From: Spirochaetaceae bacterium
Lineage (GTDB): Bacteria > Spirochaetota > Spirochaetia > B11-G9
Length of the DNA: 44,717 bases
Assembly (NCBI GenBank): GCA_015493635.1
Contig: WGCU01000084.1
Coordinates: forward strand, 1 to 44,717
Direction: 5' to 3'
The position numbers were made by a program, and so were the translations under genes. Positions 33,504-41,222 of the stretch are shown in pieces. The notes below the pieces were generated by a model. The model was not told the DNA's origin. It saw only the letters and a list, made by a program, of their open reading frames with translations, and made no database searches. Every line of letters begins with the position of its first letter. Positions within the stretch are counted from its first letter, which is position 1.

Positions 33504-34898
33504 ATGCTGATACTCTCTGAAATACCTGATTCCACGTATCTTTTTGATCTCTATCGAAATAAAAATTTTCTGCTGACGTTTGAAATAAATGAGAAGGAAA
33601 TTGCTACTTCAGAAATTCTTCCTGATTTCAAAGACAAGCGGTTAACAATTATTTTAGGAAAAGAAGGGGCTAAAGTACATTTAGATGCGACAAAACCTGT
33701 TCTTGTCAATGGAGTCGCGTGCCGCAGACGGACATTGAAAGAGAACGATATTCTCTTCCTTGGTCCGTACAGACTTGTTTTCAAGGGAGAACGCCGAAAA
33801 CCTGAATCGATAACTGTTCAACCTAAAAACCCCCGGTACAAAAAGAAGAGAAGAAAAACGTTTCTTTCTTTCAGACATTTTCTTGAAGCTGCCGCAATTC
33901 TCGCTTCTGTATCTTTTTTATGGTACTGTACAACTCAGATGCCGGTACAACGGAGACCTGAGGCTGCTCATCTCCCCATTGTTTCCAAAGGGCACGAAGC
34001 TCCTCCCCCAACTGAAGAAAAAAAAGAAAAAATCCCAAAACCTTCTTCCGAGGCAGGACCGCATATCTCTCTTCTTACCTATGCACCCCATTCAGTCTTT
34101 ACACCCAAAAAGCTTGATATGCTCTTTGTTCATGCTCATCCGGACGATGAAACCCTGGACTATGGACTTTATATATCAAAAGCAGTCGAAGCAGGGAAGG
34201 TAATTGGTGTACTTACCTTTACCGATGGAGAATCAGGATTTGACTTTTACCCTGACCGTGATACAACAGGAATCTACCCAAATAAAGAACTGCATGGGAA
34301 AGAACTGGCTGCTGTCCGTGTAAAAGAAGAGGAAAGAGCCCTGAAAATTCTTGGTGCTTCCGTATACATCCGGCTTGGATTAAAAAACCGCCCATACACT
34401 GCTGTAGAGGTAAAAAAATCAATACCTACCATCATAAAAGAGTGGGGCGGGAATACCGTTCTTGTCAATAAGCTCAATACCATCTTTACCGCCTTTGATC
34501 CGGCTGTTATCGTTTCACCGGACGGGCCTTCACATGCACGGGAGCATTTTGAGCATGAAGCGGTAGGGTATATCACTGCCCGGGCTGTAACCTTGTACCG
34601 TCAAAAAAATCCCGGTAAACTCCAGGCCTATCTTAAACTTGTTGATGTTCAGCAGGCAGAAGCCTACCCGGAAAAGCATCTTCGGACAATCGGGTTTTCA
34701 GAAGGGAATTCTGATATTGTAAGAAAAAAGAGGAATGCTCTCCTGCAGTATGAAACCCAGGCAGACGCATCCTATTACGGTATAAAACGTCTAAAAAATT
34801 TCCCCTTTGAATATTACTTTATTCAATATATAAACACACAGAACAGTGCTGAACTACTTCTTGATTCTTCAGGAAGAAAAACAGCACAAGCTCATTAG
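33504..34898 (+). CDS. FHA-like domain - TM - PIG-L deacetylase fusion
   Basis: 464 residues. Residues 1-95 are beta-rich and FHA-like: LTIILGKEGAKVHLDA, VLVNG, and ILFLGPYRLVFKG, but without the SxxH phosphothreonine pocket. A basic stretch (110-125) precedes a membrane segment (about 126-142) and a Pro/Lys/Glu linker. PIG-L/LmbE (about 203-445) has HAHPDDET with zinc ligands H212 and D215, and SHAREHFEHEAVG with H348/H351. The catalytic domain should face the periplasm, with the FHA-like part inside. The family removes N-acetyl groups from GlcNAc-type substrates with Zn2+. Confidence 0.78.
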   Translation: MLILSEIPDSTYLFDLYRNKNFLLTFEINEKEIATSEILPDFKDKRLTIILGKEGAKVHLDATKPVLVNGVACRRRTLKENDILFLGPYRLVFKGERRKPESITVQPKNPRYKKKRRKTFLSFRHFLEAAAILASVSFLWYCTTQMPVQRRPEAAHLPIVSKGHEAPPPTEEKKEKIPKPSSEAGPHISLLTYAPHSVFTPKKLDMLFVHAHPDDETLDYGLYISKAVEAGKVIGVLTFTDGESGFDFYPDRDTTGIYPNKELHGKELAAVRVKEEERALKILGASVYIRLGLKNRPYTAVEVKKSIPTIIKEWGGNTVLVNKLNTIFTAFDPAVIVSPDGPSHAREHFEHEAVGYITARAVTLYRQKNPGKLQAYLKLVDVQQAEAYPEKHLRTIGFSEGNSDIVRKKRNALLQYETQADASYYGIKRLKNFPFEYYFIQYINTQNSAELLLDSSGRKTAQAH

Positions 34899-35799: not shown

Positions 35800-36621
35800 A
35801 TGGGACTAAAAATATTCTGTATGGGTGAAATTGTAGGGAAACCCGGTATTTTTGCTGTTAAAAGCGGTTTAAAAAAGATCAAGGAACAAGAACAGATTGA
35901 TTTTGTTATTGCCAACGGAGAGGGAGCAACCGGCGGATTCGGCATAGGGAAAAACCACTCTCTCTATCTTCACAAACTTGGTATTGATGTTATTACAGCA
36001 GGAGAAAAGATTTTCTATAAAAAAGATATGGTACCCCATATCGGCAAATGTTCCTTCATGCTCCGGCCCGCTAACTATCCTCCAGGTACCCCCGGCAGGG
36101 GTTGGGGTGTTTTTCCGGTACACGATAAAAAAATCGGTGTTATTTCTCTTCTTGGACAGTCAGGATTCAACAGAGTACATTTAAGTAATCCCTTTACCTA
36201 TATCCCGGAAATAATAAAAAGGATTAAAGAAGAAACAAACATTATTATACTTGATTTTCATGCTGCAACAACAGCTGAAAAATATTCAATGTTTTTCCAT
36301 GTTGACGGAAGAATTTCAGCGGCAGTGGGAACGCATTCAAAAGCGCTTACATCTGATGCGCGAATTTTTCCGAAAGGTACCGGTATTATCTGTGATACCG
36401 GAAGAACGGGCAGTTCTTCCGGTATTGGAGGATTCGATCCGGCAGTGGAAATCAATAAATTCCTGACACAGATACCGGAAAGATCAGGAGAATGGTGGAA
36501 AAACCTTGAAATTCAGGGAATTATTATAGATATTAATGATACAGGGAAGACAGAAAAAATAAAAACTGTACGCTTCCCTGTAAGTGAGGTACCGGATGAT
36601 AGAACAGGGAAAAATAATTAA
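35800..36621 (+). CDS. YmdB-like metallophosphoesterase family protein, probably inactive
   Basis: 273 residues aligning end to end with the YmdB/TIGR00282 family: GEIVGKPG (9-16), NGEGATGG (39-46), ITAGEKIF (65-72), MLRPANYPPGTPG (87-99), DFHAATTAEK (152-161), GTHSKALTSDARIFPKGT (177 on). Metal-site residues differ from the family pattern: Asp to E10, Asn to G42, Asn-His to E69-K70, and the second His of THTH to K181. E41, H154 and H179 remain. Known YmdB proteins hydrolyse 2',3'-cyclic nucleotides or cAMP; this one probably does not. AGAGG lies close to the ATG. Confidence 0.85.
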   Translation: MGLKIFCMGEIVGKPGIFAVKSGLKKIKEQEQIDFVIANGEGATGGFGIGKNHSLYLHKLGIDVITAGEKIFYKKDMVPHIGKCSFMLRPANYPPGTPGRGWGVFPVHDKKIGVISLLGQSGFNRVHLSNPFTYIPEIIKRIKEETNIIILDFHAATTAEKYSMFFHVDGRISAAVGTHSKALTSDARIFPKGTGIICDTGRTGSSSGIGGFDPAVEINKFLTQIPERSGEWWKNLEIQGIIIDINDTGKTEKIKTVRFPVSEVPDDRTGKNN

Positions 36622-37024
36622 TATAAAAGATGAGACCGTCACATTATCATGCTCAGCTCTGAGCGGCGGATGCAAAAGCTGTAAGGCAAACTCTTTCTGC
36701 TCGGTGAACGGCCACACCTTTGACGCATTAAACAGAGGAAAACTCAATTTAAAATCAGGCGATCTTGTTGAAATATACCTTCCAACAGGAAGAACACTTT
36801 TTTCAGGATTTATGGTGCTTATTTTCCCTCTTCTACTCTTTCTCGTCTTTTTTCTCATCGGTTCAACTATTTTTAAACAGAGTGAAGGTATAAACACACT
36901 TCTTGGAGTAGCAGGTCTTGCTGCCGGATTTGCTATTACGGCAGTCTACAACAAGGTGAGCAGGAAAAAGAATACTCCCCGGGTAACCAAACGTCTGGAA
37001 GAGGAAGAAGAAATCAGCCTTTAA
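36596..37024 (+). CDS. RseC/SoxR-reducing-system (SoxR_red) family protein
   Basis: 142 residues from MIEQGKIINI (36596); GAGG lies 6 nt upstream, and a GTG 12 nt earlier is less likely. Cysteine cluster CSALSGGCKSCKANSFC (about 19-35) is followed by two membrane segments (about 71-91 and 99-118) and a basic tail with Glu-rich end. E. coli RseC and Rhodobacter RnfE-linked relatives help keep SoxR reduced; here no rseA/B or rnf neighbours are seen. It overlaps the YmdB-like gene by 26 nt and is convergent with cheB (11-nt overlap). Confidence 0.8.
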   Translation: MIEQGKIINIKDETVTLSCSALSGGCKSCKANSFCSVNGHTFDALNRGKLNLKSGDLVEIYLPTGRTLFSGFMVLIFPLLLFLVFFLIGSTIFKQSEGINTLLGVAGLAAGFAITAVYNKVSRKKNTPRVTKRLEEEEEISL

Positions 37025-39085: not shown

Positions 39086-39574
39086 ATGCATAAAAAATTG
39101 CAGGAATTTACTATCATGGGTATCGCCCTGGATGGGAAAAACGGACTACCTACCGTCATTCTCAAATCTCTGGATACAAAAAGTTTTCTCCCTTTGGAGA
39201 TAGGACCTTTTGAAGCCAGTGCCATTATCATTGAAATTGAAAATGTTAAACCTTCCCGGCCGATGGCTCATGACCTCATTGCAGAACTTTTTATACGGCA
39301 CGGCTTAAAGCTCTTGAATCTTACGATCTATCAAAAACTTGAAACTGACTACCTGGCAAAAATTGAATATAGAAAAGGGGTACGCCGCTACACGATGGAG
39401 GTGCGTCCCAGTGACGGTATAGCCGTTGCCATACGCCTTGGCACTCCGATCCTTGTTACCCAGGAAATTATTAACGCGTCCGATAAAGGTACGTCGATTC
39501 TTGATTCCATGGATAACATTTCTTCCGAAATTCTCTATTTCGAATCGAATAACATCGGTGCTCACCTAATGTAA
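39086..39574 (+). CDS. bifunctional nuclease (DUF151) domain protein, second paralogue
   Basis: 162 residues from MHKKLQEFTIMG (39086); the longer frame starts upstream of the -10. BFN pattern: GIALDGKNGLPTVILKS, FLPLEIGPFEASAIIIEIENV, RPMAHDLIAELF, MEVRPSDGIAVAIRLGTPILV. It lacks the C-terminal UVR motif present in the paralogue at 22038. Probable cytosolic nuclease or regulator; activity unproven. It is divergent from cheR and lies 40 nt before pyrG, whose promoter begins just after this gene's stop. Confidence 0.87.
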   Translation: MHKKLQEFTIMGIALDGKNGLPTVILKSLDTKSFLPLEIGPFEASAIIIEIENVKPSRPMAHDLIAELFIRHGLKLLNLTIYQKLETDYLAKIEYRKGVRRYTMEVRPSDGIAVAIRLGTPILVTQEIINASDKGTSILDSMDNISSEILYFESNNIGAHLM

Positions 39575-39577
39575 GAA

Positions 39578-39606
39578 TTGCTATTTACTGCACTCTTCTT
39601 TATAAT
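39578..39606 (+). promoter_or_regulatory. pyrG promoter, leaderless
   Basis: TTGCTA (39578-39583), 17 bp, consensus TATAAT (39601-39606), 8 nt, ATG (39615). The transcript should begin within 0-3 nt of the start codon. No Shine-Dalgarno is present. Confidence 0.6.
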
Positions 39607-39614
39607 CATGGTAC

Positions 39615-41222
39615 ATGAGAAAGTATATATTTGTAACAGGCGGTGTTTGTTCAAGTCTCGGAAAAGGAGTTGCCGCAACTTCACTCGGTAATCTGCTTGA
39701 AAGCAGGGGACTAAAAATTACCATGCTCAAGATCGATCCTTATCTGAATGTCGACGCAGGAACTATGAGTCCCTATCAGCATGGAGAGGTATACGTCACT
39801 GAAGACGGTGCGGAAACAGATCTTGATCTAGGTAACTATGCCCGGTTCACCAATTCCGTCCTGGGAAGGAAAAACTCAATAACAACGGGGCAGATATACC
39901 AGGAGGTTATCAAGAGAGAGCGGGAGGGACGCTATCTTGGAAAAACAGTCCAGGTTATTCCGCATATTACCGATGAAATCAAACGCAGAATTGTACTTGC
40001 CGGAAAAAATCCTGATGTTGATGTTGTCATCACGGAGATCGGCGGAACCGTGGGGGATATTGAATCAGTCCCTTTCCTTGAAGCAGCGCGCCAGTTTGTA
40101 AGTGATATGGGCAAAGAAAATACACTGTTTATTCATCTTACCCTTATTCCTGAAGTGGCGGGGAAGGAACTGAAAACAAAACCGACCCAGCATTCGGTAA
40201 AAGAACTACGGGAAATCGGTATTCAGCCGGATATCCTCATCTGCCGTTCACCAATACAGATAGACAAGGATATGATTAAAAAGATTGCTCTCTTTACCAA
40301 TGTCGCATCTGATTCAATTATTTCAGCCTACGATATAAAAACCACAATCTATGAGATCCCTCTTATTTTTCATGCTCAGGGGCTTGATAAAATTGTATTG
40401 GAAAAAATGAATATTCCCCGTTCCAAAATTGATTTCACTGAATGGGCAGCAATGGTTAAAACCTTTAAGACCTCATCACGCACCGTTAAAATTGGTATTG
40501 TCGGAAAATATATCAACCTTAATGACGCTTATAAGTCGGTTTATGAATCGATCTTCCACGGCGGCCTTGCCAATAAAGTACGGATAGAACTCATTAAAAT
40601 TGATGCGGAGGATATTGAAGGGGCACAGGATCTGGATACAATTTTCAGCAGTGTGCATGGTATTCTAATTCCCGGCGGATTTGGTCAGCGGGGCATCCAG
40701 GGGATGATTTCCTCCGCAGAGTATGCCAGGACCCATGGAATCCCCTGTTTTGGTATCTGTCTCGGAATGCAGATAATGGTTATTGAGTATGCACGAAACG
40801 TTCTTGGATATAAAGATGCAGACAGTACAGAATTCAAACCCGCAACTTCTGCACCGGTTATCAGCCTACTGGAAGAACAGATCAATGTTAATAATTTCGG
40901 GGGAACCATGCGTCTCGGGAAAAGTGAATCTTTTGTACAGGAAGGAACCCGGCTCCATCAGATATACGGGAGCAGTACAATTTTTGAACGGCACAGGCAC
41001 CGGTATGAAGTATCCAATCAGTACCGCGGTGAACTGGAAAAAGCCGGCCTCATTATCAGTGCTCTTACTCCTGATAAAACGCTTGTTGAATCCGTTGAGT
41101 GGCCTGATCATCCATGGGGAATAGGAGTTCAATTCCATCCGGAGTTTTTATCGACGCCGATTAATCCCCACCCGCTTTTTTCAAGCTTTATCAAGGCAAG
41201 CAACGATTATGGTAAAAAATAG
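39615..41222 (+). CDS. pyrG: CTP synthase
   Basis: 535 residues, the usual length. N-terminal synthetase domain opens KYIFVTGGVCSSLGKGV (P-loop-like ATP site), with DPYLNVDAGTMSPYQHGEV and EIGGTVGDIES. The glutaminase domain (about 290-530) has GGFGQRG, GICLGMQ with nucleophile C382, and FHPEF with H508 and E510. It makes CTP from UTP, ATP and glutamine in the cytosol. The stop overlaps lptC by 14 nt, so lipopolysaccharide export genes may ride on its transcript. Confidence 0.97.
   Translation: MRKYIFVTGGVCSSLGKGVAATSLGNLLESRGLKITMLKIDPYLNVDAGTMSPYQHGEVYVTEDGAETDLDLGNYARFTNSVLGRKNSITTGQIYQEVIKREREGRYLGKTVQVIPHITDEIKRRIVLAGKNPDVDVVITEIGGTVGDIESVPFLEAARQFVSDMGKENTLFIHLTLIPEVAGKELKTKPTQHSVKELREIGIQPDILICRSPIQIDKDMIKKIALFTNVASDSIISAYDIKTTIYEIPLIFHAQGLDKIVLEKMNIPRSKIDFTEWAAMVKTFKTSSRTVKIGIVGKYINLNDAYKSVYESIFHGGLANKVRIELIKIDAEDIEGAQDLDTIFSSVHGILIPGGFGQRGIQGMISSAEYARTHGIPCFGICLGMQIMVIEYARNVLGYKDADSTEFKPATSAPVISLLEEQINVNNFGGTMRLGKSESFVQEGTRLHQIYGSSTIFERHRHRYEVSNQYRGELEKAGLIISALTPDKTLVESVEWPDHPWGIGVQFHPEFLSTPINPHPLFSSFIKASNDYGKK

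Follow-up and report, generated by a model that had tools for sequence, protein, structure and literature searches.

Most Spirochaetia, together with one sister group of spirochaetes, carry an altered second copy of YmdB beside the normal one. This altered branch, named YmdB2 here, has been shown to go back to an ancient event in spirochaetes, the duplication of the gene for the phosphodiesterase YmdB. Judging from its sequences, YmdB2 has probably retired from catalysis and been kept for binding or regulation. The copy that led to this finding lies on a window of 44,717 nucleotides, the whole stretch of DNA that was analysed (positions 1 to 44,717 of contig WGCU01000084.1, Spirochaetaceae bacterium, GenBank assembly GCA_015493635.1). 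The name YmdB2 covers altered YmdB copies, and copies with D/N/N/H/H at positions 10, 42, 69, 70 and 181 are referred to as canonical.

35800..36621, forward strand: ymdB2, paralogue of the YmdB family, 273 amino acids, ATG start, metal site altered

Identity and fold of the window protein

The end-to-end family match claimed in the initial annotation holds, with PF13277 (YmdB) scoring 282.4 bits (cut-off 27) and residues 7-257 of the protein aligned to positions 2-253 of the 253 in the profile. B. subtilis YmdB (PDB 4b2o) is the nearest solved relative (E 1.4e-46), and AlphaFold2 predicts the YmdB fold with confidence (pLDDT 94.2, pTM 0.92); for this model 4b2o is also the best Foldseek match in the PDB (TM 0.91, rmsd 1.3, 37% identity). 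Scores against TIGR00282, the YmdB equivalog model, separate the two kinds of copy. The window protein reaches 208.6 bits and six other YmdB2 sequences 161-216 bits, so that all seven tested fall below the curated cut-off of 254.15, while two canonical controls lie above it at 294.7 and 291.5 bits. The window protein also lacks part of the presumed ligand set for two metals, and the presumed catalytic His, that TIGR00282 members would have in full.

The window gene is not beside rny. The copy linked to rny lies on another contig of the same genome (G000:C26:82635-83384); it is the canonical ymdB that the initial annotation had proposed looking for, and it directly follows rny and precedes a TlyA-like gene, the two neighbours being identified by eye. 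This second PF13277 gene has the full canonical site and scores 294.7 bits with TIGR00282.

The altered site

Aligned with 4b2o, the window protein has Glu10 in place of Asp, NGEG in place of NGEN (G42), GEK in place of GNH (E69-K70) and GTHSK in place of GTHTH (K181), in agreement with the substitutions first reported. The canonical letter is retained at E41, H154 and H179, a point absent from that earlier description. On the basis of YmdB-type structures, we take positions 10 and 181 to be ligands of metal 1 and position 70 to be the catalytic His, and likely proton donor, of canonical copies; the assignment of site positions to metals 1 and 2 throughout is presumed on the same grounds.

35827..35829, forward strand: Glu10 codon (canonical Asp, presumed metal 1 ligand); Glu in 143 of 148 YmdB2 sequences
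35920..35925, forward strand: Glu41 (kept) and Gly42 (canonical Asn), from the alignment
36004..36009, forward strand: Glu69-Lys70 (canonical Asn-His, the His presumed catalytic); 69 acidic and 70 variable in YmdB2
36172..36180, forward strand: Arg125 to His127, a short insertion with basic residues specific to the clade
36259..36261, forward strand: His154 (canonical ligand, kept); His in 140 of 148 YmdB2 sequences
36334..36336, forward strand: His179 (kept here, repeatedly lost in other lineages); His in 113 of 148
36340..36342, forward strand: Lys181 (canonical His, presumed metal 1 ligand); Lys or Arg in 147 of 148
36403..36405, forward strand: Arg202, clade-specific (canonical Met); Arg in 138 of 148 YmdB2 and Met in 33 of 35 canonical sequences

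Across YmdB2 an acid occupies position 69 in all 147 readable sequences and position 41 in 130 of 148. Position 70 can be K, C, Q, L, R, N or others, and is His in none of the 148. On the tree described below, position 10 changed once, position 179 about 11 times and position 70 24 times. The near-fixation of 10, 69 and 181, together with the changeability of 70 and 179, indicates that three charges, a trio of two acids and one base, are fixed and the catalytic position is free; with acid41, H154 or H179 lost in places, some lineages can do without the remaining ligands. The contacts within the site, including a putative Glu-Lys salt bridge, are deduced from these fixed charges. Raw counts strongly suggested that positions 69 and 181 compensate each other in charge and size (E paired with K, D with R), and independent pairs on the tree gave no support for this.

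Nine alignment columns are invariant. Residues fixed in YmdB2 and missing from canonical copies are K14, K21, T44, H53, K59, R125 and H127, as well as T158, A159, R202, S205 and E217; many of the full set are basic, and R125 and H127 lie in an insertion relative to canonical copies. The most altered site belongs to Borrelia-like sequences of family f20 (L111-L114 and L116; E10 N41 F42 E69 N70 D154 G179 R181), whose genomes still keep the gene. Three sequences of family f28 (L057, L058 and L170) retain Asn at 42 (NGDN) and have the other site changes.

Distribution, origin and selection

PF13277 matches occur in 58 of 59 related genomes, nearly always in two copies, and the window protein is matched in 96 of 98 genomes. 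The spread of YmdB2 includes Treponema-named and Borrelia-like genomes; some families are exceptions, part of f24 giving no match at all. Altered copies amount to 148 distinct sequences, of which seven come from families outside the class (f38, f51 and f64), and all 78 canonical sequences keep D/N/N/H/H. Since these five letters also served to define the canonical group, it is the tree that supports the two groups independently. The same altered pattern occurs in about 147 further distinct sequences from many genomes. Since the pattern is common to these and absent from the 78 canonical sequences, the altered site is neither chance nor sequencing error.

In a scan of named genomes, limited to the 80 best out of at least 573 matches so that rare cases elsewhere may exist, YmdB2 came from records labelled as spirochaetes, from one unlabelled bacterium (L233) and from L184; the other non-spirochaete matches were canonical. 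L184 (JAJBBL010000208.1) is labelled Candidatus Cloacimonadota and has YmdB2 in the order ymdB2-rseC-lptCAB-rpoN. This gene order is of the spirochaete type, and the label is therefore probably a binning error.

A maximum-likelihood tree of 101 sequences was built with 32 altered or signature columns removed, using a quick method with SH-aLRT support only. It places the altered copies of the class in one group (support 98), the out-of-class altered copies in a sister group (100) and both on one branch (99), with canonical copies on the opposite side (99). Even with the altered columns left out, the tree thus recovers the two groups of the five-letter sorting. The simplest account of these sequences would be that the gene was duplicated once in the spirochaete phylum.

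Pairwise dN/dS values (Nei-Gojobori) are 0.03-0.18 for YmdB2 and 0.04-0.25 for canonical copies, pairs with saturated synonymous sites giving no value. YmdB2 is under strong purifying selection, equal to that on canonical copies, which bears out the initial view that the rest of the protein is strongly selected.

Gene neighbourhood

The most constant neighbour of ymdB2 is an rseC-family gene, not a che gene.

36596..37024, forward strand: rseC-family gene, conserved neighbour and candidate partner; PF04246 71 bits, ATG at 36596

It begins before ymdB2 has ended, so that the two genes share 26 bases. Among 161 loci with enough sequence, a few genomes being counted twice (once per collection), rseC lies directly downstream of ymdB2 in 117 and is absent from that place in 44. 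The typical order in family f9 genomes and named relatives is ymdB2-rseC-lptC-lptA-lptB-rpoN, and the run lptC-lptA-lptB-rpoN recurs near ymdB2 in distant relatives. In the window itself (39086-41222), a bifunctional-nuclease-domain gene (PF02577) stands directly before pyrG and is followed by lptC-lptA-lptB-rpoN. An RseC match is absent in some genomes with YmdB2, for example in Borrelia-like ones (two of L111-L114 and L116 were searched). In the Borrelia-like genome L244, ymdB2 lies between lspA-like and murA-like genes without rseC, and lptCAB-like genes are found a few genes before it, these neighbours presumably being as named by eye. Loss of H179 was associated with loss of the adjacent rseC in a reduced set (Fisher p 0.008), and the association was unsupported on independent pairs. 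By gene order, RseC is suggested as the best candidate partner of YmdB2, although it is not universal.

The genome of the window has a second rseC (L243:3298-7672), divergent from what we take, from its sequences, to be an NQR/RNF-type operon. Upstream of ymdB2 in the window, positions 33504-34898 encode a 464-residue protein with a PIG-L deacetylase domain at residues 207-361; its N-terminal part is FHA-like by eye, and Pfam at E<=0.001 gave PIG-L alone. In E. coli, RseC belongs to the SoxR-reducing Rsx system; it is a membrane protein of two helices and contains a cysteine motif (PMC11729352). In Clostridium ljungdahlii, rseC is required for autotrophy and has been proposed as a regulator of the RNF genes (PMC9124969).

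Predicted function of YmdB2

The likely reading of YmdB2 is that two-metal catalysis has been lost, that metal 1 has been replaced by charges and that the protein now binds a ligand or partner. In such a protein, charged side chains would stand in for the first metal site, with Lys or Arg181 predicted to occupy the place of metal 1 and to be held there by Glu10 and acid69. The catalytic His would have become a free position and two-metal phosphodiester hydrolysis would have been lost with it; two-metal chemistry is very probably gone. In the window copy and most others, acid41, acid69, His154 and His179 may hold one structural metal ion. Many of the newly fixed residues are basic, suggesting an anionic ligand, and the rebuilt pocket with its new K14, R125, H127 and R202 would most likely bind such a ligand without hydrolysis. 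The state of the ligand could then be passed on to a partner protein, for which gene order points, more weakly, to the overlapping membrane protein RseC. The fuller picture, of a spirochaete-wide YmdB branch in which an acid-clamped Lys or Arg permanently replaces the catalytic metal and the protein works as a ligand sensor with redox-linked RseC, is speculative and rather doubtful as a whole.

Loss of the canonical ligands could in principle mark a decaying pseudogene or an assembly artefact. That reading has practically no probability and is refuted by the omega values of 0.03-0.18, the near-universal retention across the class, the nine invariant columns and the many clade-specific fixed residues. 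A second alternative follows from the suggestion, made in the initial annotation, of a biofilm or motility link through the neighbouring cheB and cheR genes, such that YmdB2 would switch motility or chemotaxis. Both genes do adjoin ymdB2 in the window and in many relatives, but the arrangement is not constant: they are absent from the ymdB2 locus in other lineages, and where present downstream they run convergently to ymdB2, which places them outside its operon and precludes co-transcription. In addition, neither CheB nor FliG gave any match in the six f9 genomes tested, all of which keep YmdB2. The chemotaxis link was rejected on gene orientation and on these genomes, and is very improbable. 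Elsewhere, in family f12, three genomes (G018, G061 and G088) lack CheB and show one weak FliG_C match each, unlike a fourth (G075), which has two of each.

It is unlikely, if less so, that YmdB2 is still an enzyme, namely a one-metal hydrolase with acid41, acid69, His154 and His179 as a site of two acids and two His at the old metal 2 and Lys181 standing in for metal 1. Of the 148 sequences, 108 have all four residues, a possible second-metal set, the window copy included, and H154 is kept in 140, so that some chemistry or one bound metal is possible; against this, H179 and acid41 are gone from several lineages in which the gene remains under selection, and position 70, likely the canonical proton donor, is unconstrained. 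Pseudoenzymes often tune the activity of a paired enzyme, and YmdB2 could likewise act as a regulatory partner subunit of canonical YmdB, or of its neighbour RNase Y, and tune its activity. In favour of this, both copies co-occur in nearly all sampled Spirochaetia genomes, but the two genes are unlinked and three genomes (G038, G065 and G089, 90-97% complete) show YmdB2 alone, which draft gaps could explain; this possibility is slightly less probable than that of a one-metal hydrolase. With a canonical paralogue present and omega at 0.03-0.18, a non-catalytic role under selection would be the best reading. The initial interpretation therefore stands as regards the paralogue, the selection and the non-catalytic role, and falls as regards the cheB/cheR link; it had missed the family-wide and ancient nature of the change, the possible second-metal ligand set and the constancy of rseC.

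Comparison with known systems

The automatic annotation of the YmdB2 branch as metallophosphoesterase is probably wrong, and ymdB2-rseC represents an unstudied conserved gene pair. A literature search, covering largely sources outside subscription journals, found no published description of the branch. The phosphodiesterase activity of B. subtilis YmdB is needed for its role, and its true substrate and its control of cell fate are unresolved even in that organism (PMC6123443). A naturally altered copy that selection has maintained throughout Spirochaetia might trap the ligand through binding without turnover.

B. subtilis YmdB (PF13277/TIGR00282; 4b2o) and the window protein have the same fold over the full length, share Gly and Pro motifs and both keep E41, H154 and H179. 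The window protein differs in having E, G, E-K and K at 10, 42, 69-70 and 181, in an extra loop with R125 and H127, and in its TIGR00282 score (208.6 against a cut-off of 254.15). The canonical ymdB of the same genome, beside rny, is a paralogue 39% identical to the window protein with a fully canonical site. With bacterial pseudoenzymes YmdB2 shares, from sequence and model, the loss of catalytic residues, the kept fold and purifying selection, and an active-type (canonical) paralogue. Unlike bacterial pseudoenzymes generally, most YmdB2 may retain a one-metal site, and the role of YmdB2 is a predicted one. YmdB2 can be regarded as a variant, similar to pseudoenzymes, within an already known family, unusual in its depth, its near-fixation and its uniform replacement by charge.
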